From contig NZ_GL987994.1 of NCBI RefSeq assembly GCF_000158195.2, forward strand, positions 244,343-308,342: DNA of 64,000 bases, written 5' to 3'. Below are positions 34,720-50,539 of this stretch, one piece after another. Each line of letters starts with the position of its first letter. The stretch's first letter is position 1. The notes under the pieces are model-generated. The model had not been told where the DNA came from, did not search any database, and was given only the letters and a program-made list of their open reading frames with translations. The DNA comes from Fusobacterium mortiferum ATCC 9817. GTDB lineage: Bacteria > Fusobacteriota > Fusobacteriia > Fusobacteriales > Fusobacteriaceae. A program made the position numbers and the translations under genes.

Positions 34720-34735
34720 TATGTAGGAGGGGTAT

Positions 34736-35110
34736 ATGAATAAGGCAAGTGTAAGGAGTAAGAAAAAATTAGAGGGAGTAGATAGTAGGTTAGTACTGTT
34801 GGTAGGATATGCTTTGGCAATATCTCCAGTGGATTTTTTTGTAAATGAGGGGGTAAGAAGTGAGAAAAAACAAAAGGAGTACTATAAGCAGGGAAAAAGT
34901 AAATGTGATGGGGTAGTAAATAGAAGTAAACATCAAGATGGAAAGGCAATAGATGTGTATTATGTGGGATGGGAGAGTGATGATAGTTTAACAGATGACA
35001 GATGGTATATTTTAATAGAGAGTTTTAAAAAGGCTGGTAAGATGTTGGGATTGAAGTTAGAGTTTGGATATGATTGGGGCTGGGATAATCCCCATATAGA
35101 GTTAAGGTAG
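34736..35110 (+). CDS. Phage endolysin, M15 (VanY-like) peptidase
   Basis: 124-residue zinc peptidase that cleaves peptidoglycan stem peptides, similar in layout to phage L-alanyl-D-glutamate peptidases. The M15 zinc motifs are present: SKHQDGKAIDV (SxHxxGxAxD) and WDNPHIEL (WDxPHxE) at the C-terminus. There is no signal peptide, so it needs a holin or similar for export, fitting the two small membrane proteins downstream. RBS TAGGAGGGG precedes the ATG. It is shorter than most M15 peptidases but has all metal ligands. Confidence 0.88.
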   Translation: MNKASVRSKKKLEGVDSRLVLLVGYALAISPVDFFVNEGVRSEKKQKEYYKQGKSKCDGVVNRSKHQDGKAIDVYYVGWESDDSLTDDRWYILIESFKKAGKMLGLKLEFGYDWGWDNPHIELR

Positions 35111-35111
35111 C

Positions 35112-35140
35112 ACAAAAAATAAAAAGACCCCGAAGGGTTC
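35112..35140 (-). terminator. Terminator of the minus-strand toxin-like gene
   Basis: On the minus strand ACCC-TTCG-GGGT forms a short stem with a C(UUCG)G tetraloop, followed by TCTTTTTATTTTTT. It lies nine bases past the stop of the 35149 gene and just after the endolysin stop on the other strand, so it may work in both directions. Confidence 0.65.
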
Positions 35141-35148
35141 GAGGAACA

Positions 35149-35238
35149 CTATCTGTTCTTATACCACCACCAAACAATGATAAGTAGAACAATGAAAGTT
35201 CCACCTTCAATAGAATTGATGTTGATTGTGATGTACAT
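35149..35238 (-). CDS. 29-residue hydrophobic peptide, type I toxin candidate
   Basis: A tiny gene hidden opposite the endolysin-holin gap. Translation from ATG 35238 gives 29 residues: a polar start (MYITINI), GG, one transmembrane helix (FIVLLIIV) and a WWWYKNR end. The Trp-rich, positively charged tail after a single helix is the pattern of Fst/Ldr-type toxins (LdrD ends WWRNRK). A perfect Shine-Dalgarno (AAAGGAGG on the minus strand) is spaced 8 bases from the ATG. It has its own sigma-70 promoter, a ~170-nt folded leader and a terminator. Function is inferred from architecture only; no antisense antitoxin RNA was identified with confidence. Confidence 0.7.
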   Translation of the reverse strand: MYITININSIEGGTFIVLLIIVWWWYKNR

Positions 35239-35409
35239 ATAGTGTACCTCCTTTGAAATATGCTCGACTATTTATAAGGCTCGTTACACCTTATAAATAT
35301 GAAATAAGCCTCCACCGAAGTGAAAGCTTAATTCATAACGAATTTTTGCATATTTCAAAGTCCCCAACAGAGTGTCAATCAAAGATTGACTTATGTAGCT
35401 CTATTAAGT
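35239..35409 (-). ncRNA. Structured mRNA leader of the toxin candidate
   Basis: The minus-strand leader folds into stacked hairpins: GTCAATC-TTT-GATTGAC (35374-35390), a 9-bp stem with a C(UUCG)G loop (35307-35328), TATTTATAAGG/CCTTATAAATA (35269-35299), and a 13-bp enclosing pair CTTTGAAATATGC/GCATATTTCAAAG (35348-35360 with 35251-35263) that covers part of the Shine-Dalgarno. Two pairs in the UUCG stem are G-U wobbles only on the minus strand, so this strand is the folded RNA. A 7-codon uORF (35328-35351, ATGCAAAAATTC...) starts inside the sequestering arm. Confidence 0.7.
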
Positions 35410-35415
35410 AACTAG

Positions 35416-35444
35416 ATTATAGCATAAAAATGACAAAAAGTCAA
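35416..35444 (-). promoter_or_regulatory. Strong minus-strand promoter of the toxin candidate
   Basis: On the minus strand TTGACT (35439-35444) and TATAAT (35416-35421) are exactly 17 bp apart, with a TG extension before the -10. Transcription would start near 35409. It is divergent from the 35464 gene. Confidence 0.85.
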
Positions 35445-35463
35445 AAAGGAGAGGAGGGAGAGA

Positions 35464-35646
35464 ATGGGAAAAGTATTGGGTATGGTAATCAAATTTGTAA
35501 AGTATTTTATCTGTAAATGGTTTGCAACAAGAGTGATAGAAAAGATAGTGATACTATTACTAGAGGAGCTAGTAAAAAGAACAGATAGTAAATTAGATGA
35601 TAAAATCTATCAAGCAGTATTTGAAGAAGTAGAAAATAGAGCATAG
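35464..35646 (+). CDS. Small amphipathic/membrane protein of the lysis cluster
   Basis: 60-residue protein with a hydrophobic N-terminal half (GMVIKFVKYFICKWFATRVIEKIVILLLEEL, about residues 6-36, here cited only for position) and a charged C-terminal third. RBS GGAGGGAG is strong. It lies between the endolysin and the holin-like gene, so a role in lysis or membrane association is plausible, but no family was recognised. Conservation would have to be tested. Confidence 0.6.
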   Translation: MGKVLGMVIKFVKYFICKWFATRVIEKIVILLLEELVKRTDSKLDDKIYQAVFEEVENRA

Positions 35647-35685
35647 GGTAAGAAGATGACAAAGGGAATAGAAAAGGGGGGCTAA

Positions 35686-35751
35686 ATGAAAAAGCATAGC
35701 TATATAAAGTATATGATGTGGATAGGGAGAAGGGCAAATGAGTGGGGGTAA
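35686..35751 (+). CDS. Possible 21-codon ORF coupled to the holin-like gene
   Basis: ATG 35686 follows GGGGGG, a strong RBS, and gives a 21-residue basic peptide (MKKHSYIKYMMWIGRRANEW then G) ending 2 bp before the next start. It may be a leader peptide or a small lysis component. Only the RBS and the coupling support it. Confidence 0.3.
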   Translation: MKKHSYIKYMMWIGRRANEWG

Positions 35752-35753
35752 GC

Positions 35754-35972
35754 ATGGAGTATATAAAAATAATTAGTGGAGTTTTAGCAATATTTATAGG
35801 GTATCACAAATTTATACTCTCTCTACTAGATAGAAAGATAGACAAAGAGATCTGGGAAAGAGAGAAAAAACTTTTAGAGAGATTAGAGGAGGAGAATAGA
35901 AGGAATATGGTAGATGGAATAAAGAGAATAGAGGAGAGGATGGTGAGGATAGAGGAAAAATTAATGAGATAA
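35754..35972 (+). CDS. Holin-like protein: one TM helix plus coiled coil
   Basis: 72-residue protein with an N-terminal transmembrane helix (IISGVLAIFIGYHKFIL) and a long charged coiled coil (EREKKLLERLEEENRRNM and RIEERMVRIEEKLM). The layout resembles XhlA-like and other small holin-associated proteins, with the order reversed. The frame opens at GTG 35742, but ATG 35754 fits the GGGGG RBS at 35744-35748. It is paired with the M15 endolysin 0.6 kb upstream. A genuine holin activity is inference. Confidence 0.6.
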   Translation: MEYIKIISGVLAIFIGYHKFILSLLDRKIDKEIWEREKKLLERLEEENRRNMVDGIKRIEERMVRIEEKLMR

Positions 35973-36049
35973 AATTTGAAAAAGTACAAAAAATATAGTA
36001 TATATTGATTAAGGCATATTTTATTATAAAATTAAAAGGGGGCTATTCT

Positions 36050-36331
36050 ATGGTAAATATACAAAATCCAACTGAACTTTATATTTTAAAAAGATTAAAG
36101 GAACTTTCTGAAGAAGACCAATTATTGGCAGAAGAGATGGTAAGAAGTTTAGGTGAGTGGTGTAGAGTAGAGGAAGTAGCTAGCTATCTAAAGAAAAGTA
36201 CTAGGTCCATATACCAAAGGATAGCTAATGATGAGATAATAAGTAGGCATTATGGAAATAGTGTAATTATTTTTACTAGAAGTTTAATCTTTATTTTGGA
36301 AAAAAGAGAAAATTGGAAGCGATCTAAATAA
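36050..36331 (+). CDS. Excisionase-like helix-turn-helix protein
   Basis: 93-residue DNA-binding protein with an HTH_17/Xis-type motif (CRVEEVASYLKKSTRSIYQRI, then the wing ISRHYGNSVIIF). The upstream in-frame ATG at 36005 lacks an RBS, while ATG 36050 follows AAAGGGGG. Such proteins direct excision or regulate phage genes. No integrase accompanies it in the window. A terminator follows at 36360. It is the last phage-like gene before the TnpB homologue. Confidence 0.7.
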   Translation: MVNIQNPTELYILKRLKELSEEDQLLAEEMVRSLGEWCRVEEVASYLKKSTRSIYQRIANDEIISRHYGNSVIIFTRSLIFILEKRENWKRSK

Positions 36332-36359: not shown

Positions 36360-36404
36360 GATAGATTATGTAAAATTTGAAAGGTGCATAATCTATCTTT
36401 TTTT
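36360..36404 (+). terminator. Strong terminator ending the phage islet
   Basis: GATAGATTATG (36360-36370) pairs perfectly with CATAATCTATC (36387-36397), followed by TTTTTTTATTTTTT. A second, imperfect hairpin (GGAAG...CTTCC, 36315-36349) lies just before it. Confidence 0.85.
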
Positions 36405-36427
36405 ATTTTTTGTAAAAGTACATATTT

Positions 36428-36581
36428 TACTGAAAAAGCGTACTTTAAGTATATGTAATCAATTTATTTTACCCTTTTTTCTATTTTATGTCAATAGCCT
36501 TAACCTAAATAAGTAGAACTTTTTTTAAAAAATTATAATTTTTAAAACAAATTTTTAATACGTAAATTCGCTTTTTCAGTA
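36428..36581. repeat. 13-bp inverted repeats bracketing the TnpB-like leader
   Basis: TACTGAAAAAGCG (36428-36440) and its perfect complement CGCTTTTTCAGTA (36569-36581) enclose 128 bp of AT-rich, gene-free DNA. The left arm lies inside a second palindrome (AAAGTA...TACTTT, TACATA...TATGTA). It could be a remnant of an IS200/605-type left end or a regulatory hairpin for the TnpB-like gene, which starts 31 bp later. Confidence 0.55.
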
Positions 36582-36611
36582 TAAAAAGAACTCAAAAAAG
36601 GAGGAGTTTTT

Positions 36612-37712
36612 TTGGCTAACTATATAGTTCAATTTCCTTTGAAAGTAGAGAAGTATCAAGAGGATGTCCTTGAAAAAAGATTTAGGATAGGTAGGGATAT
36701 ATACAACTCTCTTTTGAGAAAGATGATGAAAAAATATGATGAGATGAGAAAGCAAAGAGTATATAGGGAGCTACTCCATGAGATAGCTAATACTGAGAAG
36801 AAAAAACCACTGTATAAAAAGCTAGAAACAATTAGAAAAGAGAGTGGATTTACAGAGTATGCTTTTCATAAAGAGGTAAAGGATATGCAGAAATTTTTTA
36901 AGCAGAATATAGATTCCTTTACAGCTCAAAAGATAGCTTCACAGGTGTGGAGAGCTTTTGAAAAGATGATGTATGGAAGCGGTCAGAGGGTACATTTTAA
37001 ACAGGAAGATGATTTCAAATCTCTTGAGGGAAAATCCAATGGAACAGGGATTAGATATATAGATGGATATATAGATTGGAAAGGACTTAGATTAAAAGTT
37101 CTAATTGATGAGGAAAACCACTATGAGAAAGAGGCTCTTAAAAGTGAGATAGCCTATTGTAGACTTATTAGAAAAAATATTCGTGGAAAACTCAAGTACT
37201 ATACACAGATAGTTTTTAAAGGTATGCCACCTAGAGAGATAGATAAGAAAACTGGAGAGTATAGAAAAAGAGTAGGTAGTGGAGAGGTAAAGGTAAAGAT
37301 AGGTAAGGAGTACCTTGTCTATGAAAAAGATGGGGAGTCTAAAGAGATAGAGCTAGCTGATAAAATTTACTCACTAGAGGTAAGAAGAAGAGAGCTCATC
37401 GAGAAGATAAATAGAAGAAAAAGAGAGGGGCTATCAACACTCAGTGTAAGACATAGAAAACTAGTAGAGGAGTTAAAAGAGGTATATAGAAAACAAAGTG
37501 ATGTGAGAAAGTACCAACATGAGTGCTTGAGTAATGAGATACTAAGCCTTGGAGATAGGGTAGAGATAGAGGAACTAGAGAGTGTACAAGAGGAGATTTA
37601 CTCTAAGGGAAAAGAGAGAAGAGTGAAGATAACTAGAAGTGGTAAGAGAGGAAATAGGGCTCCTAGAATGCTTGTGGAGATAATTGAAAGAAAACTAGAT
37701 TATAAAGAGTAA
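36612..37712 (+). CDS. Truncated, nuclease-dead TnpB homologue (TldR-like)
   Basis: 366-residue TnpB/IS605-OrfB relative. The N-terminal RNA-binding half is well kept (KRFRIGRDIYNSLL, FHKEVKDMQKFFKQNIDSF, KSNGTGIRYI, QIVFKG). The RuvC-I motif, normally VGIDLG, reads VKVKIG, so Lys229 replaces the catalytic Asp. RuvC-II keeps IEEL (Glu320). The protein stops at RKLDYKE, before the zinc finger and RuvC-III Asp; no remnant follows. Start is TTG 36612 after a near-perfect RBS (AAGGAGGAG). An open frame with two catalytic losses resembles the TldR guide-RNA repressors derived from TnpB. No TnpA is present. Confidence 0.75.
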   Translation: MANYIVQFPLKVEKYQEDVLEKRFRIGRDIYNSLLRKMMKKYDEMRKQRVYRELLHEIANTEKKKPLYKKLETIRKESGFTEYAFHKEVKDMQKFFKQNIDSFTAQKIASQVWRAFEKMMYGSGQRVHFKQEDDFKSLEGKSNGTGIRYIDGYIDWKGLRLKVLIDEENHYEKEALKSEIAYCRLIRKNIRGKLKYYTQIVFKGMPPREIDKKTGEYRKRVGSGEVKVKIGKEYLVYEKDGESKEIELADKIYSLEVRRRELIEKINRRKREGLSTLSVRHRKLVEELKEVYRKQSDVRKYQHECLSNEILSLGDRVEIEELESVQEEIYSKGKERRVKITRSGKRGNRAPRMLVEIIERKLDYKE

Positions 37713-37757
37713 ATTATTAGGTTTTGACATGAACCTAACTAGTAATAGTGAAAACTT

Positions 37758-37846
37758 CAAATGAAAAAGATTGGGCTATCACTCTTTAGAGAGGGATAGA
37801 AAGTCTTGAGTAGTGAGGAGTAAGAAGTGTCAGTACTTTTCATTTG
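37758..37846 (+). ncRNA. Structured segment after the TnpB-like gene, candidate guide RNA
   Basis: CAAATGAAAA (37758-37767) pairs perfectly with TTTTCATTTG (37837-37846), enclosing a hairpin CTATCACTCT-TTA-GAGAGGGATAG near 37776-37799. A smaller hairpin AGGTT...AACCT lies at 37720-37735. Position directly downstream of the gene is where TnpB/TldR guide RNAs lie. Scaffold end and guide cannot be fixed by eye. The 37713-37894 gap holds no ORF and may also carry the promoter of the polysaccharide operon, which I could not place. Confidence 0.5.
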
Positions 37847-37894
37847 TTTAAAAAAATATTTAACAGATAAATTGGGAATTGGAGAGAATTTTTT

Positions 37895-39259
37895 ATGAAA
37901 AGACAGGTAGCAAAAGTTGTAATGATAATAATGCAGTTTATTTTCTATTTTGTAGTGAATGAACTGTTTGATGTGCCAGATAGGATAATGTATAATACAT
38001 TTTTTATTTATCTGGCTTTAAATTTAACCAAAAATATGTATTCTTTTAAAACTATTCTAATATGGGAAGAATTGAGAAAACTCCTATTAGTTCATGCTGA
38101 GTATCTAATAATTATGCTTATTAATGACTTGGCTTTCTGGGGTATGAAATTTATTCCTGTACACCTTTTTGTAGGACTTACTTTTACATTCTTTAATATT
38201 TTCATAATTAGGTTTATAAGAACAGTATTTAGAAAAAATCTTGAGAAGAGCTTATTGATAATAGGGATAGGAAATACTGCTAATCAGATAACAAGGATAA
38301 TAAGAGATAATAATACCTTTACTATGTATAAACTACTTGGATATATCTCAGCTAATAGTATAGAGGGGGTAAATCAAGAGGTACATGTAGAAAAAGATAG
38401 AGTGATAGGTACTTATGAGGATTTGGATAAAATCCTAGATGAAAATAAGGTGAATGAGGTACTGATAGCTTTACCACTAGCAGATAATGAACAGATGGAA
38501 GAGATAATTAATAAGTTAGATGGTAGAGTGGATAAAATTAAGTTTATTCCAAGATTAAATGGCACATATACACTTAACTCAACAGTAGAGGACTATGATG
38601 GAATGATGGTGTTATCTACTTACAATGGAATGAATAAGAAAAGATATAAGATACTGAAAAGATGCTTTGATATCTTTGCTGGTAGTGTAGGTTGTGTAGT
38701 ATTAGGACTACTTTATTTAATCTTTGCTCCTAAGATAAAAAAAGATGGTGGAAAAGCAATATTTACTCAAAATAGAATTGGTAAAGATGTAAAACCATTT
38801 AAGATGTATAAGTTTAGAAGTATGTATGTAGATGCAGAAGAAAGATTACAAGAGTTATTAGAAAAAGATGAGAAGAAAAGAGAGGAATTCTATAGAACTT
38901 TCAAACTGAAAGATGACCCAAGAATAACTAAGGTAGGGGAGTTTTTAAGAAAAACTTCATTAGATGAGTTTCCACAGTTCTTGAATGTGATAAAGGGAGA
39001 GATGTCCTTTGTAGGACCTAGACCAGTGGTACAAAAAGAAGTAGATATGTACTATGGAAAAGAGAACGCAAGAAAGATATTTATGGTAAAACCAGGAATA
39101 ACTGGAATGTGGCAAGCTAATGGAAGGTCAGATGTAGAGGATTATGATTCAAGAATAGCTTTAGACTTATACTACATACGTAACTGGTCATTGTGGCTAG
39201 ATGTGATAATAACAGTTAAGACAATAAAGAATGTTATATATAGGAAGGGTGCATATTGA
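37895..39259 (+). CDS. Polyprenyl glycosylphosphotransferase (WbaP/CpsE type)
   Basis: 454-residue initiating enzyme of a surface polysaccharide; it loads a sugar-1-phosphate onto undecaprenyl phosphate. The N-terminal half has four or five membrane helices and a nucleotide-binding-like CoA_binding_3 domain (LLIIGIGNTANQITRII). The C-terminal half is the bacterial sugar transferase: KRCFDIFAGSVGCVVLGLL, IGKDVKPFKMYKFRSM, LRKTSLDEFPQFLNV, MSFVGPRP and PGITGMWQANGRSD. The sugar cannot be deduced. It opens the locus and overlaps the next start by one base. Confidence 0.92.
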   Translation: MKRQVAKVVMIIMQFIFYFVVNELFDVPDRIMYNTFFIYLALNLTKNMYSFKTILIWEELRKLLLVHAEYLIIMLINDLAFWGMKFIPVHLFVGLTFTFFNIFIIRFIRTVFRKNLEKSLLIIGIGNTANQITRIIRDNNTFTMYKLLGYISANSIEGVNQEVHVEKDRVIGTYEDLDKILDENKVNEVLIALPLADNEQMEEIINKLDGRVDKIKFIPRLNGTYTLNSTVEDYDGMMVLSTYNGMNKKRYKILKRCFDIFAGSVGCVVLGLLYLIFAPKIKKDGGKAIFTQNRIGKDVKPFKMYKFRSMYVDAEERLQELLEKDEKKREEFYRTFKLKDDPRITKVGEFLRKTSLDEFPQFLNVIKGEMSFVGPRPVVQKEVDMYYGKENARKIFMVKPGITGMWQANGRSDVEDYDSRIALDLYYIRNWSLWLDVIITVKTIKNVIYRKGAY

Positions 39260-40071
39260 TGAAAGAAAAAGTTTCAGTCTTGATGTCAATATATTTTAAG
39301 GAAAAGCCAGAATATTTTAGGGAGAGTTTAGAAAGTATAAAAAATCAAACATATGAAATAGATGAATTGGTTTTAGTAAAAGATGGTGCTTTAACAGATG
39401 GACTAGAAGAAGTAATAAAAAAGTATAAGGATGTATTAAATATAAAAGAAGTCCCTCTAGAAAAAAATGTAGGATTAGGATTAGCTTTAAGAGAAGGAAT
39501 ATTACATTGTTCTAATGAAATAGTAATTAGAATGGATAGCGATGATATTATGGATAATTCTAAAATAGAAGAGCAGATAAAAATATTTAAAGAAAATCCA
39601 GATTATATTTTAGTTGGAACAAATGCATATGATTTTAATAAAAATATAAAGGATATTTTATCAGAAAGAATTCTCCCAGAAAAAAATGATGAAATACTAA
39701 AATTTTCTAAAAGAAGATGTCCTTTTATACATGCAGGAATAGGATTTAAAAAAAGTTATGTATTAAAAGCTGGAAATTATGAAGATTGTTATTGGTTTGA
39801 AGATTATGATTTATTCCTAAGAATGTTAAAGTTGGGTAAAAGTTACAATATTCAAAAAAATCTTTTATATATTAGAAGTAATTTAGATGTTTATAAAAGA
39901 CGAGGCGGTTTAATTTATATAAAAAGAGAAATTAAAGCACTAACTAAATTTTATAAACGAGGGGATATTAATTTTTATTATTATATAACAAATATGATAA
40001 TAAGAATTGGAATTAGAGTTTGTGGAAATAAATTGAGAAGTTTGATATATAAGAAATTATTAAGGAGATAA
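39259..40071 (+). CDS. Family 2 glycosyltransferase (AmsE-like)
   Basis: 270-residue GT-A-fold glycosyltransferase. The N-terminal VSVLMSIYFKEKPEYFRESL, nucleotide-binding VKDGALTDGL and the metal-binding DSDD (RMDSDDIM, near residue 95) are typical of the AmsE-like branch of GT2. A TTG at 39256 is in frame, but ATG 39259, overlapping the upstream stop (tgATG), is the natural start. Donor and acceptor sugars are unknown. From this gene on, codon use becomes more A/T-rich. Confidence 0.88.
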   Translation: MKEKVSVLMSIYFKEKPEYFRESLESIKNQTYEIDELVLVKDGALTDGLEEVIKKYKDVLNIKEVPLEKNVGLGLALREGILHCSNEIVIRMDSDDIMDNSKIEEQIKIFKENPDYILVGTNAYDFNKNIKDILSERILPEKNDEILKFSKRRCPFIHAGIGFKKSYVLKAGNYEDCYWFEDYDLFLRMLKLGKSYNIQKNLLYIRSNLDVYKRRGGLIYIKREIKALTKFYKRGDINFYYYITNMIIRIGIRVCGNKLRSLIYKKLLRR

Positions 40072-40076
40072 ATATA

Positions 40077-41183
40077 ATGAAAATAATAGGAAAGATACTT
40101 TTAATCTTAATATTTAAAATATTTAATCTGTTTCCTATTAATAGGAAAAAAGTTATATTAGGGGAGTGTCCTGGAATAGGATTTGATGGAAATGTAAAGA
40201 GGGTATATGAAGAATTAAAAAAAAATAAAGATTTACAATTTATTTGTATTTCTTTAAAGAAACAAAAATTTGAATTTTGTGTAAAAGAAAAATTGAAACA
40301 ATACTCTGTATTGGAAATAAAAGGAATTTGGCATTTAGCAACCTCTGGATTTTGGTTTTCAGACTCTGTATTTTTTTCTTTTTTCCCACTAAAAAAAGAA
40401 CAAAACAACATACAACTTTGGCATGGAGCAGGTGCTTTTAAAAAATTTGGAAGAGATGTTAGTAGTGGGCTTAAGTATTACATTACTTTTTTGAGCGTTA
40501 GTTCAAATGAAGTAATTGATATTTATGCAAATGCTTTTAGAATTTCAAAAGAAAAAGTGAGAAATTTAGGTATACCAAGAGCAGACATCTTTTTTAGAGA
40601 AGAAGAAAAACAAAGGATAAGGGAAGAATTTTATAAGAATTATCCAGAATTAAAAAACAAAAAGATAATTCTATATGCACCAACTTTTAGAGATAATGAA
40701 AAAAATAAATTTAATTTAAAATTGGATATAGAATTAATGAAAGAAAATTTAGAAGGATTAAATTATATATTGTTATTAAAACTACATCCAGGAATAAAAA
40801 GTAAAGATATTCAAGTTGATAATAAATTTTCATATAATTTTTCTGATTATTCTAATACAGCAAATTTGTTAATCATTTCAGATATTTTGATAAGTGATTA
40901 TTCATCGATAATATTTGAATTTTCAATAATGAAGAAACCAATATTATTCTATGCGTATGATGTAGAAGAATATATAAGTGATAGAGGATTTTATTATAAT
41001 TATTATGATTTTATTCCTAATAAAATAAGTTATACAACAGAAGAAATAATAAAAGCAATTATAAATCAAGAGTGGGATTTAGAAAGAATAGAAAAATTTG
41101 CAAGATATTTCTTTAATCCTTTTGATGGGAACTCAACTGAGAGAGTTCTTAAAGAAGTTGGTTTATGGGAGGAAAATAAATGA
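40077..41183 (+). CDS. CDP-glycerol/ribitol glycerophosphotransferase-family protein
   Basis: 368-residue enzyme of the TagB/TagF (Glyphos_transf) family, which moves glycerol- or ribitol-phosphate from CDP onto an acceptor. Diagnostic pieces: IQLWHGAGAFKKFGRD, ILYAPTFRD, LLLKLHP, and ILISDYSSIIFEFSIMKKP with the following DRGFYY. The two genes that follow make CDP-ribitol, so ribitol phosphate is the likely substrate. The N-terminus is hydrophobic, in keeping with membrane attachment. It is 6 bp after the glycosyltransferase and overlaps tarI by four bases. Confidence 0.85.
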   Translation: MKIIGKILLILIFKIFNLFPINRKKVILGECPGIGFDGNVKRVYEELKKNKDLQFICISLKKQKFEFCVKEKLKQYSVLEIKGIWHLATSGFWFSDSVFFSFFPLKKEQNNIQLWHGAGAFKKFGRDVSSGLKYYITFLSVSSNEVIDIYANAFRISKEKVRNLGIPRADIFFREEEKQRIREEFYKNYPELKNKKIILYAPTFRDNEKNKFNLKLDIELMKENLEGLNYILLLKLHPGIKSKDIQVDNKFSYNFSDYSNTANLLIISDILISDYSSIIFEFSIMKKPILFYAYDVEEYISDRGFYYNYYDFIPNKISYTTEEIIKAIINQEWDLERIEKFARYFFNPFDGNSTERVLKEVGLWEENK

Positions 41184-41902
41184 TATTTGGAGCAATTTTA
41201 GCAGGTGGAACTGGAAGTAGAATGGGTTTAACTAATATGCCTAAGCAATTTTTAGAATTAGGAGATAAGCCTATTATTATTCATACATTACAAAAATTTT
41301 TATTAAATCTAAAGTTTGATGTTATATATTTAGGAGTTCATGAAAATTGGACTGGGTATATGGAGGATTTAATAGAAAAATATATAGTAGATGAAGAAAA
41401 TAAAAATAGAATAAAAATTATAAGTGGTGGAGCTGATAGAAACTCTACAATTATGAATATAGTAGAAGATATAGAAAAAAATTATATTTTGACTAATGAA
41501 GACATAATAGTAACACATGATGCAGTAAGACCATTTATCACATCAAGAATACTAGAAGAAAATATAGAAATATCGTTGAAATATGGAGCATGTGATACAG
41601 TAATTCCAGCAATAGATACAATAGTAGTTTCAGAAAATAATGAGATAATAAAAGAAATACCTAACAGACAATATATGTACCAAGGACAAACACCACAAAG
41701 TTTCAAGATATTAGAATTAAAAAATTTATATAATGAACTTTCTAAAGAGGAAAAAGAAATTTTAACAGATGCATGTAAAATTTTTGTGATAAAAGGTAAG
41801 GAGGTTCATTTAGTAAGAGGAGAAATTTCTAATTTGAAGATCACTACTCAAGAAGATTATAAAATAGCTCAAGCAATGATAGGAGTGAAATTAAATGATT
41901 AA
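41180..41902 (+). CDS. tarI: Ribitol-5-phosphate cytidylyltransferase
   Basis: 240-residue IspD-like cytidylyltransferase that makes CDP-ribitol. The motif AGGTGSRMG, LPKQF-like MPKQFLELGDKPIIIHT, GGADRNS and THDAVRPFI are intact, and the C-terminal ILTDACKIFVIKGKEVHLVRGE segment closely follows staphylococcal TarI rather than IspD. The adjacent TarJ-type reductase supports TarI over an isoprenoid role. It overlaps both neighbours by a few bases. Confidence 0.9.
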   Translation: MIFGAILAGGTGSRMGLTNMPKQFLELGDKPIIIHTLQKFLLNLKFDVIYLGVHENWTGYMEDLIEKYIVDEENKNRIKIISGGADRNSTIMNIVEDIEKNYILTNEDIIVTHDAVRPFITSRILEENIEISLKYGACDTVIPAIDTIVVSENNEIIKEIPNRQYMYQGQTPQSFKILELKNLYNELSKEEKEILTDACKIFVIKGKEVHLVRGEISNLKITTQEDYKIAQAMIGVKLND

Positions 41903-42908
41903 TTATGTATATCAATTAATATCTCCTAGGGTAATTTCTATAAAATATGAGAATTTAAATTTAGATGATAAAGTAATAGTAAAACCTTTATATATGGCTA
42001 TATGTCATGCTGACCAAAGATATTATACAGGTAATAGAGATAAAAAAGTATTAAGTAAAAAATTACCAATGGCTCTTATACATGAATGTTGTGGAGAGGT
42101 AGTAATTGATAGAAGTGGGAAATTTAAAAAAGGACAGAAAGTAGTCTTAATTCCAAATGTACCAGGACAATATAATAATGAAATATATGAAAATTATGGA
42201 GAGGGAGCTAAATTTTTATCGAGTGGTTATGATGGATTTATGAGAGAATATATAGATTTATCTAGTGATAGAATAGTTCCTTTTGATAATATTCCATTAG
42301 AAATAGCAACTATAACAGAGTTTGTAAGTGTAAGTGTTCATGCAACAGAAAGGTTTAAAAATATTTCTCACTCTAACAAAGAAGGGATAGGAATTTGGGG
42401 AGATGGAAGTTTAGCTTTTGTAACAGCGAATGTATTAAAAAAAGAATTTCCTAATTCTAAGATAATAGTATTTGGAAAAAATAGGGATAAGCTTTCTTTA
42501 TTTTCTTTTGTAGATAAGACAATATTAATTGATGAAATTCCAGTTGATTTAAAAATAAATCATGCTTTTGAATGTGTTGGAGGAGAAGGAAGTTTTTATG
42601 CTATTGATGATATCATAAAATATATAAAACCTCAAGGAACAGTTATGTTAATGGGGGTAAGTGAGAATAAGGTTGGAATAAATACAAGAGATATTTTAGA
42701 AAAAGGTTTAACTTTTGTAGGAAGTAGTCGTTCTGGATATCAAGATTTTGTAAGAGCTATAGAGATATTACAAGATGAAAAAGTTCAAAAAAGATTAAAA
42801 CTTATAATAGAAAATTATGGAGTAATAAAAAAGATTGAAGATATACACAAAGTATTTAATTTTGATTTAAATACTCCATTCAAAACTGTATTTAGATGGG
42901 AGATATAG
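41895..42908 (+). CDS. tarJ: Ribulose-5-phosphate reductase (TarJ)
   Basis: 337-residue zinc alcohol-dehydrogenase-like enzyme that reduces ribulose 5-phosphate to ribitol 5-phosphate with NADPH. It matches TarJ in MINYVYQLISPR, YMAICHADQRYYTGNRD, LIHECCGEVV, the Rossmann segment GIWGDGSLAFVTANVL and the late FECVGGEGS and LTFVGSSRSG. Cys/His metal ligands are present (CHAD, HECC). It overlaps tarI by eight bases, matching the paired tarIJ order of Gram-positive teichoic acid loci. Confidence 0.92.
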   Translation: MINYVYQLISPRVISIKYENLNLDDKVIVKPLYMAICHADQRYYTGNRDKKVLSKKLPMALIHECCGEVVIDRSGKFKKGQKVVLIPNVPGQYNNEIYENYGEGAKFLSSGYDGFMREYIDLSSDRIVPFDNIPLEIATITEFVSVSVHATERFKNISHSNKEGIGIWGDGSLAFVTANVLKKEFPNSKIIVFGKNRDKLSLFSFVDKTILIDEIPVDLKINHAFECVGGEGSFYAIDDIIKYIKPQGTVMLMGVSENKVGINTRDILEKGLTFVGSSRSGYQDFVRAIEILQDEKVQKRLKLIIENYGVIKKIEDIHKVFNFDLNTPFKTVFRWEI

Positions 42909-42910
42909 AA

Positions 42911-43906
42911 GTGCAAGAGATAAAAGTAAGTGTAATAGTGCCAATATATAATACAGAAAAATTTTTAAAAAAATGTATAGATAGTATAGTAAATCAAACT
43001 TTAGAAGAAATAGAAATAATACTAATAAATGATGGCTCAACAGATAATAGTCATAATATTTGTGAAGAGTATAGCAAAAAATATCCTCAAAAAATAAGAT
43101 ATATAAATAATAAAAATATAGGATGTAGTGCTAGTAGAAATTTAGGAATGAGTTTAGCTCAAGGAGAATATATAGCTTTTGTAGATAGTGATGATTATAT
43201 TGATAAAGAAATGTATCAAGAAATGTATGAAAAAGCTAAGAAAGAAAATTTAGATATAGTTGTTTGTGGAATAACTTATGTAAATCAAGAAACTAAAAAA
43301 AGAATATCATCTATTCCAAGTAATATAAGTAAAAAAAGTGACTATTTAATTTATAAAAATAGGATGGCTAATCCTGTAAATAAATTATATAGAAAAAACA
43401 TAATAAAAAATATATTATTTCCAATAGATACTCATTCAGGAGAAGATATAGTATTTTGTTATAAAAGTATATTGAAAGCTAAAAAGATAAATCATATAGA
43501 GAAATCATATTATTATTATATTTATCATGGAAATAATTCAATCTTTAATTTAGAAAAAAGATTAGGTATTTTTATTGCTTTCAAGGAGCTTTATATTTAT
43601 CTAAAAGATAATGATTATCTAAAAAATAAGGAGATAATAAAAAAGTTTTATGAGAATTTTAATTTTTATGCAATAAGAGGAGCATTTTTTATGTTATTAA
43701 ATCCTAAATTAGTATCGAATGAAGAATATGAAAAGTATGACAAGTTATTTTATAAAGAATTAAAAAAGATAAAGTTTCTTCCATTTAAATCAAAAGTATT
43801 AGTATATTATTATAGAAATATTATTTGGGGAATTAGAAAATTTAATTTATATGATATTTTAAAAAAAATTAAAAATAAAGTTGGAGAATTTTATGAAAGA
43901 AACTAA
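42911..43906 (+). CDS. Family 2 glycosyltransferase
   Basis: 331-residue GT2 enzyme with VSVIVPIYNTEKFLKKCIDS, INDGSTDNS and the metal motif FVDSDDY (GEYIAFVDSDDYID). The frame is open from ATG 42896 inside tarJ, but GTG 42911 fits the GGGAGA ribosome-binding site and starts at the usual distance from VSVIVP. The C-terminal part is helical and very Lys/Asn/Tyr-rich. Sugar specificity is not inferable. Its 3' end overlaps the Wzy gene by 14 bases. Confidence 0.87.
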   Translation: MQEIKVSVIVPIYNTEKFLKKCIDSIVNQTLEEIEIILINDGSTDNSHNICEEYSKKYPQKIRYINNKNIGCSASRNLGMSLAQGEYIAFVDSDDYIDKEMYQEMYEKAKKENLDIVVCGITYVNQETKKRISSIPSNISKKSDYLIYKNRMANPVNKLYRKNIIKNILFPIDTHSGEDIVFCYKSILKAKKINHIEKSYYYYIYHGNNSIFNLEKRLGIFIAFKELYIYLKDNDYLKNKEIIKKFYENFNFYAIRGAFFMLLNPKLVSNEEYEKYDKLFYKELKKIKFLPFKSKVLVYYYRNIIWGIRKFNLYDILKKIKNKVGEFYERN

Positions 43907-44969
43907 ATTTTTATTTATAGGTATCCTATTTTTTATTTTTTTAGGATATTATAGTTCAAATAGATATAATGTAACATATATAAAAGAAGGAAGTATACTT
44001 TTTATATTAGGTTTAACATTAATTTATGGGCTGATAAATTATAAAAAATTATCTAAAAAAGATTTTAAGTTAATTATTGGTATATTTTTTAATTTAATTT
44101 TTATTTTAAAATATTATTTAAGTTTTTATTTAATTATAATTTCGAAAGGTATAAAACGAAAAAAAAGAATTTTTTATTTTTTATTAATAAGTATATTTTT
44201 TTATTTATTAACATTTTTATTAGATAGAATGAATTTAATTTCTAATAAAGAATTTTATAGAAAAACATTAGAAGGAATTATAAATAGAAATGATTTAGGA
44301 TTTGGGCATCCAAATACAGCTATGATGTCATTATTACCAATTTTCTTTTCAATATATTATTTATGGTATGAAAAAAATAAAATAAAAGTAATAGGAGTAA
44401 TCCTAATTTTATCTCAACTAACATATAAAGTAACTAATTCTAGGACTGGATATATTTTGATATTTATTTTCTTAATTTTAATTCTAATAAAAGATAAATT
44501 TTTATATAAATTGAGATATTTTATATATGGAGAATTTTTTTTCTTACTATATTTTAGTATAGTATTACCTTCAAAATTAAAAGCAACTGTTTATAATAAA
44601 TTATTAAGTGGAAGATTTTGGTTATTTGATTATTATTTAAATAATCAAGAAATAACATTATTAGGAAAAAGAGAGATAGAAAAACTATATAAAATTTTAC
44701 CTTTAGATAATACTTATATTAGAGTTTTATTTGAACACGGAATAATAGGTCTGATTATTTCTATATGTTTAATTTTATATGTATTTAAATTATTATATAG
44801 ATATAAAGATTATAAAGCTATAAGAATTTTTATAGTTGTTTTAATTTTTGGAATAATGGAGGGACAAGCACTTTATTATCACTTTAATATTATTTATTTA
44901 ATAATTTATGAATATTTAATAAAAAAGGAGAAAAATGAAAAAAATAAGCATATTAATTCCAGTATATAA
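43893..44969 (+). CDS. O-antigen/capsule repeat-unit polymerase (Wzy-like)
   Basis: 358-residue integral membrane protein with about ten helices and the usual large periplasmic loop. Conserved traces of the Wzy/O-antigen ligase superfamily are GFGHPNTAMMSL, TNSRTGYIL and, after the loop, DNTYIRVLFEHGIIGLII. Start ATG 43893 follows TTGGAGA; the TTG at 43881 is part of that RBS region. It is extremely A/T-rich, much more so than the lpx genes. It would link undecaprenyl-bound repeat units in the periplasm, with Wzx at 47015. Confidence 0.8.
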   Translation: MKETKFLFIGILFFIFLGYYSSNRYNVTYIKEGSILFILGLTLIYGLINYKKLSKKDFKLIIGIFFNLIFILKYYLSFYLIIISKGIKRKKRIFYFLLISIFFYLLTFLLDRMNLISNKEFYRKTLEGIINRNDLGFGHPNTAMMSLLPIFFSIYYLWYEKNKIKVIGVILILSQLTYKVTNSRTGYILIFIFLILILIKDKFLYKLRYFIYGEFFFLLYFSIVLPSKLKATVYNKLLSGRFWLFDYYLNNQEITLLGKREIEKLYKILPLDNTYIRVLFEHGIIGLIISICLILYVFKLLYRYKDYKAIRIFIVVLIFGIMEGQALYYHFNIIYLIIYEYLIKKEKNEKNKHINSSI

Positions 44970-45954
44970 TACAAGTAAATATTTAGAAAGATGTTTGAAT
45001 AGTATTATTAATCAAAATTTAAAAGAAATAGAAATAATTTGTATAAATGATGGTTCAACAGATAATAGTTTAGAGATTTTAAATAGTTTTGTTCAAAAGG
45101 ATAGTAGGATAAAAATTATAAATAAAAATAATGGTGGATTAACTACAGCAAGAAATGTAGGAATAAAAAATGCTACTGGAGAGTATTGTTTAAATATAGA
45201 TAGTGATGATTGGATAGAGCAGGGATACTTAGAGGAAATATATAAAAAGGCTAAAAAAGAAAATTTGGATATGGTTATTTCAGATATTATTTTTGATTAT
45301 GAGTATAAGAAAGAGGAAATTATAAAAAAAGATTTAAATATAGAAGAAAATAAAATTTTAACTGGTAAGGAGTATTTAAAAATTTTTTTAAGTAAAAATT
45401 TTTATGGTTATACTTGGAATAAACTAATAAAAAAAGAAATTTATGAGAAATTTGGAATAGAATATGATGAAGAAATTTTTTTATATGAAGATGTTGAAGT
45501 TATAGCTAAATTAGCACTTCATATGAAAAGAATAGGGAAGATAAATAAAGCATACTATCATTATATTCAAGGAGAAAATAATGGAAGTAGAGTTATTAAA
45601 TTTAAAAATTATTTAGATATGGAAAGATGTTTTAATGAAATAAAAAAATATTATTTAAAAAGTAATATTGAGAAAGAAGTAATGAACTTTTTAGAATTTC
45701 GTGAAGAGTATAGCTTGTTTAAAAATTTACTATTTTCATCTTATAAAAAAAATAATGATTATTATGAAAGGGTAAATAAAGTTTTATTCAAAATAGAAAT
45801 AATGAAAAAGTATAATGATTTGTTGGAAGAGAAAAGTGTTATATTATTTTTTAAATTAGAAAAAAAAGTGAGAACATTAAAAAATAAAGTAATAATTTTT
45901 GAAATTATTAAAAAACTAATTTGGGTTAAACAAAAATTAAAGAGGAGTAAGTAA
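44935..45954 (+). CDS. Family 2 glycosyltransferase
   Basis: 339-residue GT2 enzyme, related to the 42911 gene (ISILIPVYNTSKYLERCLNS, INDGSTDNSLEIL, NIDSDDWIEQGYLEEIYKKA). It begins 35 bases inside the Wzy gene, after RBS AAGGAG. The C-terminal half is helical. It probably adds another sugar of the repeat unit. Confidence 0.87.
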   Translation: MKKISILIPVYNTSKYLERCLNSIINQNLKEIEIICINDGSTDNSLEILNSFVQKDSRIKIINKNNGGLTTARNVGIKNATGEYCLNIDSDDWIEQGYLEEIYKKAKKENLDMVISDIIFDYEYKKEEIIKKDLNIEENKILTGKEYLKIFLSKNFYGYTWNKLIKKEIYEKFGIEYDEEIFLYEDVEVIAKLALHMKRIGKINKAYYHYIQGENNGSRVIKFKNYLDMERCFNEIKKYYLKSNIEKEVMNFLEFREEYSLFKNLLFSSYKKNNDYYERVNKVLFKIEIMKKYNDLLEEKSVILFFKLEKKVRTLKNKVIIFEIIKKLIWVKQKLKRSK

Positions 45955-45960
45955 AATTTT

Positions 45961-46998
45961 ATGAGTATAAAATCAATAGTTGGATTAAATTTAAGAAAAA
46001 TATTAGAAAAAAATGAAATAAGTAAGTTAATAAAAAATTATCAAAATATAGAAAAAATTATATATTTTTCAACACCAGAGCACAATAATTTAGGAGACCA
46101 AGCAATAGCGATAGCAATAGAAAAAATACTAAAAGATAAATATAAAGATAAATTAATTTTAGAATTTTCATACAATAAATATAATAGAAATAAAAAAATG
46201 ATAAGAAAGTTATTAAATGAAAATGATATTATAGTAACAATTGGTGGAGGAAATTTTGGAAATTTATATTTATATGAGGAAGAACAAAGAAGGGATATAG
46301 TAGAAAGATTTCCAAATAATAAAATTATAGTTATGCCCCAAAGTATATCTTTCACAAATGACGAAATTGGAAAAAAAGAAATAGAAAAAAGTAATAGTAT
46401 TTATTCAAAGCATAAAAATTTTAATATAATAACAAGAGATAGAAAAAGTTATAAATATGGAAAAGAGTATTTTCCAAATAATAATGTGTATTTAACTCCA
46501 GATAGTGTGTTATATTTAGAAGATTGGTATAGAAATGATGCTGATAGGAAAGATGTTATTTTGACGTTAAGAAGTGATAAAGAAAAAGCATTAGATAATG
46601 AAAAAGTAGATAGAATAATAAAGCATTTGGAGTCAAAAAAAATAAATTTTAGAAGAGATGATACTATTCAAAAATATTCTGTGAATAAAGAAACTAGAGA
46701 GTATGAAGTAAAAAATATGTTAAGAAAAATTTCATCAGCTAAATTAAATATAACTGATAGATTTCATGGGGTAATTTTTTCTGTAATTACAAATACACCA
46801 GTAATTGTTTTTAAATCATTAGATCATAAAATAGAAGAGGGAGTAAAATGGTTTAAACATTTAGATTGGGTTCACTATGTTACAACAGTAGAAGAGGCAG
46901 AAAAGTTGATAGATAAATACATGAATTCTGAATATAAAGTAGAAAAAGAAAAATATGAGTTAAAAGAGAAATTAAAAGAAGTATTTTTTAATATTTAA
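45961..46998 (+). CDS. Polysaccharide pyruvyl transferase-family protein
   Basis: 345-residue cytoplasmic protein of the PS_pyruv_trans family, which adds pyruvate ketals to sugars using phosphoenolpyruvate or, in some members, transfers sugars. Signature pieces are FSTPEHNNLGDQAIAIAIEK, VTIGGGNFGNLY, VMPQSISF, ITRDRKSYKY, LTPDSVLYL and ITDRFHGVIFSVI with the conserved RFHG. It lies 6 bp after the glycosyltransferase. A pyruvylated polymer would carry a negative charge in addition to ribitol phosphate. Confidence 0.85.
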   Translation: MSIKSIVGLNLRKILEKNEISKLIKNYQNIEKIIYFSTPEHNNLGDQAIAIAIEKILKDKYKDKLILEFSYNKYNRNKKMIRKLLNENDIIVTIGGGNFGNLYLYEEEQRRDIVERFPNNKIIVMPQSISFTNDEIGKKEIEKSNSIYSKHKNFNIITRDRKSYKYGKEYFPNNNVYLTPDSVLYLEDWYRNDADRKDVILTLRSDKEKALDNEKVDRIIKHLESKKINFRRDDTIQKYSVNKETREYEVKNMLRKISSAKLNITDRFHGVIFSVITNTPVIVFKSLDHKIEEGVKWFKHLDWVHYVTTVEEAEKLIDKYMNSEYKVEKEKYELKEKLKEVFFNI

Positions 46999-47014
46999 GA
47001 TTTTTGGAGAATAA

Positions 47015-48424
47015 ATGAATAAATATAAAAAATTAGGATATAATACATTATTTATATTAATAGGAAATATTGGTTCAAAGTTAGTAAGTTTTTTATTATT
47101 ACCATTTTATACAGCTTATTTATCTCCAGAGCTTTATGGAGAGTTAAATATGATAACAATGGCAATAACTTTTTTAACTCCATTATTAACTTTACAATTT
47201 GCTACTACTGTTTTTAGATTTGCTAATCATCAACCAGAAGAAAAGCAAAATATGATAACTTTTATAGCGTTATCAAGCGTAATTCCTATAATATTAATAG
47301 TAAGTATATTTTCAAAAAATATTATAGAATATTTTAGGATAGATTATATAACTAGATATTATAAATATATTTTAATAATTTTTATATTTTCATATTTAAA
47401 TAGTGTATTGAAAGAAAAAATTAGAACAAATTCAAGAGTAAAATTATATTCTGTTATTGGAATAATAGAAACATTTATAACAGTTAGTCTAAATGTTTAT
47501 TTAGTTCCAAAATATCTGGTATTAGGAATGATAATGTCTATGACCTATTCAGCAATTATAATTTCTATAATTTTAGCTTATTTTTCAAGATTAGATAAAA
47601 TTATAAGAATAAAATATTGGAATAAAGATGTTTTTAAAGAAATGTTAAGGTATTCGATTCCTTTGATTCCTAATGCTATTATATGGAGTATATTAGCCTT
47701 AGCTGATAGAATATTTTTAAAATATTATTATGGATTGGAAGAAGTAGGTTTATATTCAGTAGCAAGTAAAATTCCTATGATATTAACAGTAATTTTTAAT
47801 ATTTTTTATAATTCTTTGCAAATTTCTATGTTAGATGAGTATAAAAAAGAGGGATTTGATAAATTTTTTCATAATATTTTTTATAATATTAGTTTAATCC
47901 AAATGTTTGGTGCAATAGGAATAACAATTTTAATAAAACCAATGATTAGATTTATTGTAGCAGATACTTATATTGAAATTTGGAAATATATTCCATTATT
48001 TTTATTAACTATTCTATTCAATAATTATTCAGCAATATTAGGAATAAAGTATTTGTTAAAAAAAGATACAAAAAATTTATTAAAAAGTTCATTTATAGCA
48101 AGTATAGCTAATATAGGTTTTAATTATTTATTAGTTCCGAGATATGGAATTTTTGGAGCTATAATAGCTACAGTGATATCATATATAGTATTATTTTATA
48201 TGAGAAAAAAAGATACAGAAGATATGATAAATATTGAAAAGTCTTTCTATCTAGGAAATATAATTATTTTATTACTAAGTTTATTACCTATATTTGAGAG
48301 CCTAGAAAATTATAGATTATATATAAGTTTCGTTTTAATTTTTTTATTTATAATAATACAAAAAAATTATTTATTATCTCTATATGATTTTGTTTTAAAA
48401 AGATTTAATAGAAGGAGAGTATAA
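47015..48424 (+). CDS. Polysaccharide repeat-unit flippase (Wzx)
   Basis: 469-residue MATE-like (MOP superfamily) transporter with about 14 membrane helices. The N-terminus YNTLFILIGNIGSKLVSFLLLPFYTAYLSPELYGE is typical of Wzx (positions about 8-42). It moves undecaprenyl-linked repeat units to the periplasmic face for Wzy. It ends 3 bp before galU and is the last gene of the strongly A/T-rich block. Confidence 0.9.
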   Translation: MNKYKKLGYNTLFILIGNIGSKLVSFLLLPFYTAYLSPELYGELNMITMAITFLTPLLTLQFATTVFRFANHQPEEKQNMITFIALSSVIPIILIVSIFSKNIIEYFRIDYITRYYKYILIIFIFSYLNSVLKEKIRTNSRVKLYSVIGIIETFITVSLNVYLVPKYLVLGMIMSMTYSAIIISIILAYFSRLDKIIRIKYWNKDVFKEMLRYSIPLIPNAIIWSILALADRIFLKYYYGLEEVGLYSVASKIPMILTVIFNIFYNSLQISMLDEYKKEGFDKFFHNIFYNISLIQMFGAIGITILIKPMIRFIVADTYIEIWKYIPLFLLTILFNNYSAILGIKYLLKKDTKNLLKSSFIASIANIGFNYLLVPRYGIFGAIIATVISYIVLFYMRKKDTEDMINIEKSFYLGNIIILLLSLLPIFESLENYRLYISFVLIFLFIIIQKNYLLSLYDFVLKRFNRRRV

Positions 48425-48427
48425 TTT

Positions 48428-49291
48428 ATGAAAGTAACAAAAGCAGTCATACCAGCAGCAGGACTTGGTACTAGGGTATTGCCTGCAACTAAGGCACAGC
48501 CTAAAGAGATGTTAGTAATAGTAGATAAACCGTCATTACAATATATCATAGAAGAACTTGTAGAGTCTGGAATAAAAGATATAATCATAATTACTGGTAG
48601 AAATAAGAATAGTATTGAAGACCATTTTGATTACTCTTATGAATTAGAAGATACTCTTAAAAAAGATGGAAAAGATAAGTTACTAGGAAAAGTAGAGAGT
48701 ATATCATCTATGGCTAATATCTGTTATGTTAGACAAAATCATCCAAAGGGATTAGGACATGCTATATTAAAAGCTAAATCTTTTGTAGGAGATGAGCCAT
48801 TTGTAATAGCTCTAGGAGATGATATAGTGTACAATGATAAACCAGTAGCTAAGCAGCTAATAGAAAACTATTCTAAATATCAATCTAGTATAGTAGGTTG
48901 TCAAGAGGTAAAGGAATCTGATGTTTCTAAGTATGGAATAGTAAAACCATCTAAATCATTAGATGAAAAAACTGTAGAGATGGTAGATTTTATAGAAAAA
49001 CCTAGTATAGAGGAAGTTCCATCAAGACTTGCCTGTCTTGGAAGATATCTACTTACTCCAAAAATATTTGAATACTTAGAAAAAACAGAACCAGGAAAAG
49101 GTGGAGAGATACAGCTTACAGATGCCATAGTAGCTATGATGAAAGATGGAGAAAAGGTATTAGCTTATAACTTTGATGGAAAAAGATATGATATAGGTAA
49201 TAAGTTTGGATTACTTAAAGCAAATATAGAGTTTGGACTAAGAAATGAGGAGACAAGAGAGGAATTATTAGAATATCTTAAAAATATCTAG
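48428..49291 (+). CDS. galU: UTP-glucose-1-phosphate uridylyltransferase
   Basis: 287-residue enzyme forming UDP-glucose for polysaccharide synthesis. Motifs: AVIPAAGLGTRVLPATKAQPKEML, IIITGRNKNSIEDHFD, GLGHAILKAKSFVGDEPF, ALGDDI and late LTDAIVAM and DIGNKFGLLKANIE. It is intact and of normal length. Base composition returns to that of the housekeeping genes, so galU probably marks the conserved right flank of the cassette. Confidence 0.95.
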   Translation: MKVTKAVIPAAGLGTRVLPATKAQPKEMLVIVDKPSLQYIIEELVESGIKDIIIITGRNKNSIEDHFDYSYELEDTLKKDGKDKLLGKVESISSMANICYVRQNHPKGLGHAILKAKSFVGDEPFVIALGDDIVYNDKPVAKQLIENYSKYQSSIVGCQEVKESDVSKYGIVKPSKSLDEKTVEMVDFIEKPSIEEVPSRLACLGRYLLTPKIFEYLEKTEPGKGGEIQLTDAIVAMMKDGEKVLAYNFDGKRYDIGNKFGLLKANIEFGLRNEETREELLEYLKNI

Positions 49292-49300
49292 GAGCAACTT

Positions 49301-50539
49301 ATGTTTAAAATCAACCAAAGCATATACAACCAAATAGGAGAGTTAGGTGTATATATCTACACCCTCTCTCTTTTTATATCCAAGTCAGGTGTAAATATAG
49401 GGTTAGGATTTTTAGCTCTAGCCTTTTTACTCTATCTTTGGGATAGGAGAAAAATTAAATTGACAACAGAGGAAAAATATATATTGGTTATCCTTATTCT
49501 ACTACCAATATTTAGCTTTTTCTCAGCAGGTGGAATACACTCTTTTCAAAGAGCTTTAGAAAAATCATACAGATATATTGGACTCTTTTTTATGCCTTAC
49601 TTTCTTTATAAGGATAGAGTTGTAAAAATAGTACTATCACTTTTTTCCCTTAGTATAATAATATCTTTTATCAATGGTATTCTATACTACAAAAAACTTA
49701 AATGGAATTTTAATGTAAGATTTCTCAGTTTCTCAAGTAATACCTTAGATGAGGCACACATATTAGCTATGGGGAGTATGCTGATTTTAGTAGCCATTAT
49801 CTACTATATCAAAGGAGGAAAATATATAACCTTACTATATACATTTACCCTTATCTTAGCAGTAGCAGCCTTAGTGATGACACAGGGAAGGGGAGCATGG
49901 TTAGGTTTTGGAGCTAGTCTATTTGTAGTTTCTTTCTTTCTCTTTAGAAGTAAAAAAATCTTTATAGCTATAACTATTCTTACTCTGCTTTTAGGTTATG
50001 GGGGTATCAATAGTAAGGCTTTAGAAAATAATAAATATATCAAGAGAATAGAGAGTATAACTAATACAGAAGCAACGTCTCCAAAGGTAAGGCTTCTTCT
50101 ATGGGAAAGCTCAATAGATATGTTTAAAAATAACCTTCCCTTTGGAGTGGGAAGAGATAATGCTAGTAAGTATGCTTTAGAGTATATGGAGAAGAACCAT
50201 AAATATGATGAGATGAAGTATAAATGGGCAAAGGCTCATCTTAAAGAGATAGCTGGCTCTGGTAATCTTCACAGTATGTACTTCACAAGTCTTGCTGAGG
50301 AAGGGATACTAGCTTTTCCTTTTATAGGGATGTTTCTATTTATCCTATACAGACAATTTAGATACTGTATAGCTAGAGAAAGAGATTTGAATTTCTATCT
50401 AGTAGTAGGTACAATGGGTATGCTTGTAGCCTTTTTAGTAGGTGGGCTTACTGAGAATGTATGGAGAGAGATATGGAAATCCAATATGTTGGTATTCTCT
50501 TTAGGGCTATATCTATCCAGAGTAAAGAGTGAGAATTAG
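49301..50539 (+). CDS. O-antigen ligase-like membrane protein (WaaL/RfaL family)
   Basis: 412-residue membrane protein with ten or more helices and the Wzy_C-like signature around LVMTQGRGAWLGF and a periplasmic loop ending with GSGNLHSMYFTSLAEEGILAF (His in the NLHSMY segment, a conserved ligase position). It would transfer polymer from undecaprenyl pyrophosphate to lipid A core. Start ATG 49301 with RBS AGGAGCA, 9 bp after galU. Its stop codon overlaps the first copy of the terminator-promoter spacer repeat. Confidence 0.82.
   Translation: MFKINQSIYNQIGELGVYIYTLSLFISKSGVNIGLGFLALAFLLYLWDRRKIKLTTEEKYILVILILLPIFSFFSAGGIHSFQRALEKSYRYIGLFFMPYFLYKDRVVKIVLSLFSLSIIISFINGILYYKKLKWNFNVRFLSFSSNTLDEAHILAMGSMLILVAIIYYIKGGKYITLLYTFTLILAVAALVMTQGRGAWLGFGASLFVVSFFLFRSKKIFIAITILTLLLGYGGINSKALENNKYIKRIESITNTEATSPKVRLLLWESSIDMFKNNLPFGVGRDNASKYALEYMEKNHKYDEMKYKWAKAHLKEIAGSGNLHSMYFTSLAEEGILAFPFIGMFLFILYRQFRYCIARERDLNFYLVVGTMGMLVAFLVGGLTENVWREIWKSNMLVFSLGLYLSRVKSEN

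Follow-up and report, generated by a model that had tools for sequence, protein, structure and literature searches.

The window analysed here, a stretch of 64,000 nucleotides from Fusobacterium mortiferum ATCC 9817 (contig NZ_GL987994.1, positions 244,343 to 308,342), carries a gene on the plus strand (36612..37712, hereafter tldR) that is predicted to encode a nuclease-dead, C-terminally truncated descendant of TnpB of 366 amino acids. Upstream of it lie a terminator-like hairpin and an invertible promoter segment, and downstream follow a conserved RNA resembling a TnpB guide RNA and a cluster of apparent surface polysaccharide genes. The initial annotation of this DNA had proposed a protein like TldR, a naturally nuclease-dead TnpB acting as an RNA-guided transcriptional repressor; it did not mention the RNA, the duplicated gene or the promoter that inverts, and these carry most of the functional information.

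The 366-amino-acid frame is uninterrupted, starts with TTG and is preceded by a strong ribosome binding site, GGAGGAG, read from the sequence (36600..36606, plus strand), as first described. Its product matches the NCBIfam family guided_TnpB with an E-value of 1.3e-7, which lies under the family's curated cut-off. A sequence search of the PDB with the protein gave no match, and the likeness to TnpB came from a fold search. Using an AlphaFold model (mean predicted local distance difference test score 71.5, predicted template modelling score 0.56, C-terminal part badly predicted), Foldseek ranked the TnpB structures 8h1j (E-value 1e-9), 8iaz and 8exa at the top, followed by Cas12f and Cas12m2. 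The alignment and structure prediction suggested earlier as a check thus both point to a TnpB fold.

When aligned with full-length relatives, Lys229 (in VKVKIG) falls on the RuvC-I motif VGLDIG, so that the catalytic aspartate is replaced, as the initial annotation had held. The RuvC-II acid is retained (Glu, or Asp in 3 copies), while the C-terminus is shorter by about 110 residues, the RuvC-III RD motif among them, and two internal stretches are deleted; the complete RuvC D-E-D triad of an active TnpB nuclease is therefore not present. The protein had also been described as ending before both the zinc finger and RuvC-III. The loss of RuvC-III stands, but no CxxC zinc ribbon was seen in the full-length relatives of this clade in the same alignment, so the loss of a zinc finger is no specific feature of the protein. 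Judged by sequence and modelled fold, the product is a TnpB homologue whose RuvC active site is predicted to be inactivated.

A survey of the window's genome together with 60 other genomes of the family (61 in all) revealed seven tldR copies in five Fusobacterium genomes, 69-97% identical. One is a second copy in the window's own genome, 97% identical, and further copies of similar length (69-87% identical) occur in 4 of the 60 other genomes. The dead RuvC-I site, the truncation and both internal deletions are common to all seven, which excludes a recent truncation with intact close relatives, the finding that had been named as fatal to the proposal. The pairwise ratio of nonsynonymous to synonymous substitution rates (dN/dS) among the copies is about 0.08-0.22, with dS up to 1.7. 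Taken with the shared defects, these ratios confirm that the gene is not simply decaying: it is a dead and truncated protein maintained by purifying selection. Phage and plasmid records contained only distant TnpBs. The tldR unit is no longer a mobile insertion sequence element: in none of the seven copies does a tnpA gene lie between switch and glycan genes, and the right-end hairpin of the transposon is missing. In locus L029, an unrelated-looking IS605 copy lies upstream of tldR.

Immediately 3′ of tldR, positions 37719..37833 on the plus strand hold the scaffold of a reduced, reRNA-like TnpB guide RNA, with GTGTCAG at its end. Compensatory changes were found in 7 of its 37 predicted pairs and 98% of the alignment cells pair; none of 500 shuffles reached either value, and the signal was gone in slid controls. 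The outermost helix of the model is invariant and so has no covariation support. A covariance model built on this RNA detected it only at the seven tldR loci, in a one-to-one relation across the 61 genomes, and Rfam gave no match at family thresholds. RNA of this kind also accompanies active relatives, in which the 5′ hairpin (GGTTTTGA...) is the same and the fold similar. On this comparison the conserved RNA is a shortened TnpB guide RNA (reRNA) retained 3′ of tldR. What is supported is thus a TnpB descendant that is nuclease-dead yet maintained, is accompanied by a conserved RNA of guide-RNA type and is tied to surface polysaccharide operons.

The end of the scaffold predicts where a guide would begin. 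The reRNA of an active relative on a viral contig (L103) shares the exact string GAAGTGTCAG with the Fusobacterium RNA, and 28-nt repeats with a 61-bp period on two Ruminococcus contigs (L025/L026) have the GTGTCAG end directly before the spacer, so the guide should start at 37834. MAFFT placed the GTGTCAG of the Fusobacterium RNA against another part of the L103 reRNA, and the boundary was set by the shared GAAGTGTCAG, an exact match, and by where the repeats of L025/L026 end. The predicted fixed guide of 15 nt, TACTTTTCATTTGTT (37834..37848, plus strand), is identical in six of the seven copies and carries one change in L029, while the bases after it diverge among copies; it is conserved though the following gene differs in L030 and L034. 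On the Ruminococcus contigs, which come from metagenome-assembled genomes, a tracr-like scaffold copy and a short CRISPR-like array of 3-4 repeats (L025:4780-5000, L026:1500-1800) lie just upstream of a full-length TnpB relative, an arrangement resembling transposon-CRISPR intermediates (TranC).

Upstream of tldR, the 13-nt inverted repeats TACTGAAAAAGCG (36428..36440, -184 to -172 from the start codon) and CGCTTTTTCAGTA (36569..36581), found by repeat search, bound a segment with a sigma-70 promoter, TTGACA-17-TAAAAT, matching 11 of 12 consensus bases (36466..36494, minus strand). Inverted repeats stand at the matching relative place in the other tldR loci. The promoter faces away from tldR (OFF) in the window and in L029, L030, L031 and L033, and faces tldR in L032 and L034. 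Taken locus by locus, the inverted repeats score little better than A+T-rich shuffles do, so the case for inversion rests on two comparisons. Between L032 and L033, from near-identical genomes, the flanks are 98% identical, and the 156-bp segment is 97% identical but in opposite orientation. In the window's own genome, the end of contig C4 is 99.5% identical to the flanking sequence of the second locus, but its promoter segment runs the other way round (99.4% identity after inversion), and both orientations are thus present in one assembly (G000:C4:15791-15947, L116; G000:C8:43170-43362, L029). The C4 sequence had been considered as a third switch copy and was rejected as such, being the second-locus flank with its segment inverted at a contig end; it stems either from a mixed culture, with the locus itself in both states, or from one more copy. 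Contig C4 ends inside the switch, which probably broke the assembly. The upstream segment is a phase-variable invertible promoter (inverton) found in both orientations. Resolvase-family genes occur in each of the five genomes and none lies near the two loci of the window's genome, in a search of which tyrosine recombinases were not part. Ahead of the switch, a putative terminator hairpin (GATAGATTATG...CATAATCTATC, then a T run; 36360..36405, plus strand) folds at -14.6 kcal/mol in the window, and similar hairpins are present in L030, L032 and L034, the four loci folded. A consensus scan missed the hairpin in the window, whose stem is too rich in A+T and whose loop is too long to be listed.

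All seven tldR copies lead surface-polysaccharide genes, at several chromosomal sites, so the position directly upstream of a polysaccharide operon claimed for the window holds generally. In the window, the first polysaccharide gene after the RNA encodes a sugar transferase (Pfam Bac_transf; 37895..39259, plus strand), and the rest of the apparent cluster, with glycosyltransferases, a glycerophosphotransferase and others, extends over 39256..50539 on the same strand; the first three genes were checked against Pfam and the operon structure is predicted from spacing. A Bac_transf sugar transferase is also the first glycan gene downstream of tldR at most loci, while in L034 a 608-amino-acid polysaccharide-type protein comes first and the sugar transferase next. 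At every locus, the conserved RNA sits before the glycan genes, following tldR or, in L030 and L032, an acyltransferase-like gene that intervenes between tldR and the RNA. These two acyltransferase-like genes (L030:7607-9890 and L032:7502-9770, counted along the tldR strand) are only distantly related (30% identity) and occupy exactly the same position, which suggests cassette exchange at this site.

The genes on the other side are less constant and differ at most of the other loci. Upstream of tldR, a Rep/DnaC-like stretch is found in the window, and phoH-like, rbsC-like and cobQ-like genes (named by sequence appearance) are found elsewhere. This variation among loci indicates that the tldR unit moved or was duplicated and that the phage-like genes of the window, to which the initial annotation had attached meaning, are incidental. 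Window positions 32151-36331 hold replication-like genes (HTH_36, an IstB/DnaC-like ATPase, an M15-type peptidase and HTH_17); relatives of some of them recur near tldR in L029 and L030, so the unit may have travelled on a mobile element. Two similar-looking AAA-ATPase_like proteins lie one on each side of the whole region (30386-32029 and 50612-52303), the first with a PDDEXK_9 domain (Pfam).

Taken together, these observations suggest, with a probability of roughly one half, that a domesticated nuclease-dead ribonucleoprotein of the TldR type resides in phase-variable surface polysaccharide operons of the F. mortiferum group and silences a competing glycan gene. Somewhat more tentatively, the truncated TnpB could serve as an RNA-guided switch of coats, in which one fixed 15-nt guide lets the coat that is ON keep rival glycan operons silent. 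Once the promoter segment of about 150 bp had flipped ON, tldR, the guide RNA and the polysaccharide genes would be transcribed as one unit; the RNA cut out of this transcript would be bound by TldR, and the protein with its fixed guide would then bind DNA without cutting it. Bound TldR would silence a competing surface-glycan gene, leaving one coat per cell at a time. Co-transcription, formation of the ribonucleoprotein, DNA binding, repression and the identity of the target are inferred. What favours this reading is the dead but selected TnpB fold, the one-to-one RNA, the GTGTCAG boundary, the fixed guide, the inversion and the constant link to glycan operons, together with the precedent of csrA-tldR loci (PMC13418256) and a guide match in a lipopolysaccharide (LPS)/O-antigen-type operon described below.

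Several points weigh against it. Target searches were pattern scans of genomes, and what follows concerns the matches listed. For the final guide, no target conserved between genomes was found, nor a conserved combination of target and target-adjacent motif (TAM). The sole perfect non-self match among those listed falls in a GT9 glycosyltransferase gene (L219:6971-8005, minus strand), on the coding strand, within a 13-gene LPS/O-antigen-type operon of G018, a genome with two tldR loci. The chance expectation is 0.05 perfect matches in G018 and about 0.25 across the five genomes by extrapolation, and the match is preceded by GATTAA, unlike the TTTAT deduced from two active G037 elements; it is a lead only and no evidence of targeting. 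RNA binding and DNA binding by the protein are both inferred. At L030 and L032 the RNA has remained beside the glycan genes and is cut off from tldR, which suits a role as leader equally well. Matches of the final guide with one or two mismatches fell mostly inside unrelated genes, prmA among them, and the guide's matches in viral contigs were at chance level, 13 with a loose TAM-like prefix, close to a prior hand estimate. Since known TldRs have seeds of just about 6 nt and accept natural mismatches (PMC13418256), a target may exist even though no long match was found. Among the candidates set aside, earlier guide registers (starting TTG.. or TTC..) matched nearly always within unrelated genes and at no conserved promoter, a 10-mer match in IS110-like elements of the window's genome was expected by chance, and a match in a core sugar transferase gene of G018 was missing from its orthologues.

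The leader position of the RNA leads to a serious rival, which we nevertheless consider less likely: cis-acting control of elongation, in which the TnpB descendant would bind the nascent reRNA-derived leader and promote read-through or attenuation, with no DNA guide. Such a leader-bound factor would functionally replace UpxY, LoaP or RfaH. This reading has to be taken seriously because at all loci the RNA precedes the first glycan gene as part of its 5′ leader, even where an acyltransferase gene separates it from tldR, and because the layout resembles that of Bacteroides capsule loci, where an invertible promoter is followed by UpxY and the polysaccharide genes; the missing conserved DNA target would also be expected. 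An elongation factor would not account for the 15 nt that are invariant after the scaffold, exactly at the guide position of active relatives. Moreover, the protein has no NusG-like domain (Pfam), the consensus scan found no terminator between the RNA and the glycan gene, and we know of no TnpB that acts on RNA polymerase elongation.

Binding directed against mobile DNA or phages is improbable. Here the fixed guide would point to a foreign sequence and the polysaccharide link would reflect shared phage pressure, which agrees with the missing chromosomal target and with nuclease-dead Cas12m, one of the fold matches, defending by binding alone (PMC11013384). Yet viral contigs held no more guide matches than chance gives, a single fixed guide across five species is unlike defence, and the strict polysaccharide link would be unexplained. 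Slightly less probable still is local feedback, with the ribonucleoprotein binding its own promoter segment or inverted repeats and tuning expression or inversion: the switch is constantly just upstream of tldR and a short TTTTCA string is common to repeat arms and guide, but no guide-length match occurs in the switch of any locus, and the repeat arms differ between loci where the guide does not. A functionless, decaying transposon remnant, as the lost catalytic residues, C-terminal part and right-end hairpin might suggest, is refuted by seven open frames under the selection described above at dS up to 1.7, compensatory RNA changes and an invariant guide.

The reading of a guided switch of coats can be set beside known systems. 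In csrA-tldR loci of gut Clostridia, the nearest precedent, which include hin, an invertible promoter of about 120 bp lies upstream of tldR, and the guides target alternative flagellins inside their open reading frames (PMC13418256). The Fusobacterium loci share with them a nuclease-dead TnpB, a retained guide-RNA scaffold, linked variable surface-structure genes and promoter inversion upstream; they differ in having polysaccharide operons instead of flagellin, in the loss of the C-terminal part with RuvC-III, in the phylum and in that no hin-type recombinase was seen next to the locus. Active TnpB/IS605-type relatives (Cetobacterium L035, viral contig L103 and Ruminococcus L025/L026) are 45-49% identical over the shared part and, unlike the Fusobacterium protein, have the D-E-D triad, about 490 amino acids, and transposon ends or a repeat-spacer array. 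Cas12m likewise belongs to a class that acts by RNA-guided DNA binding without cutting, but it is much larger and works with CRISPR arrays, whereas the Fusobacterium TldR has one fixed guide and no array. With Bacteroides capsule loci the common points are a phase-variable promoter, a regulator as first gene and polysaccharide genes, except that the regulator here descends from TnpB instead of being a NusG paralogue and has an RNA of its own, and that antitermination is hypothetical. A literature search, outside which lay Wiegand 2024 (the original TldR study) and Altae-Tran 2023, found neither TldR or dead TnpB linked to polysaccharide operons nor promoter inversion of this kind described in Fusobacterium.

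These loci raise the question of whether an ON coat silences the others via a 15-nt guide or a TnpB remnant steers RNA polymerase on its own leader. If the proposed reading is true, the C-terminal part of TnpB including RuvC-III would be dispensable for a selected function, and a smaller natural RNA-binding, perhaps RNA-guided, protein would be available for study. It would represent a further exaptation of TnpB, beyond flagellar control, and an RNA-guided counterpart of capsule control in Bacteroides, in which RNA-guided regulation and DNA inversion come together in the control of coats that govern recognition of a gut commensal by phages and the immune system.
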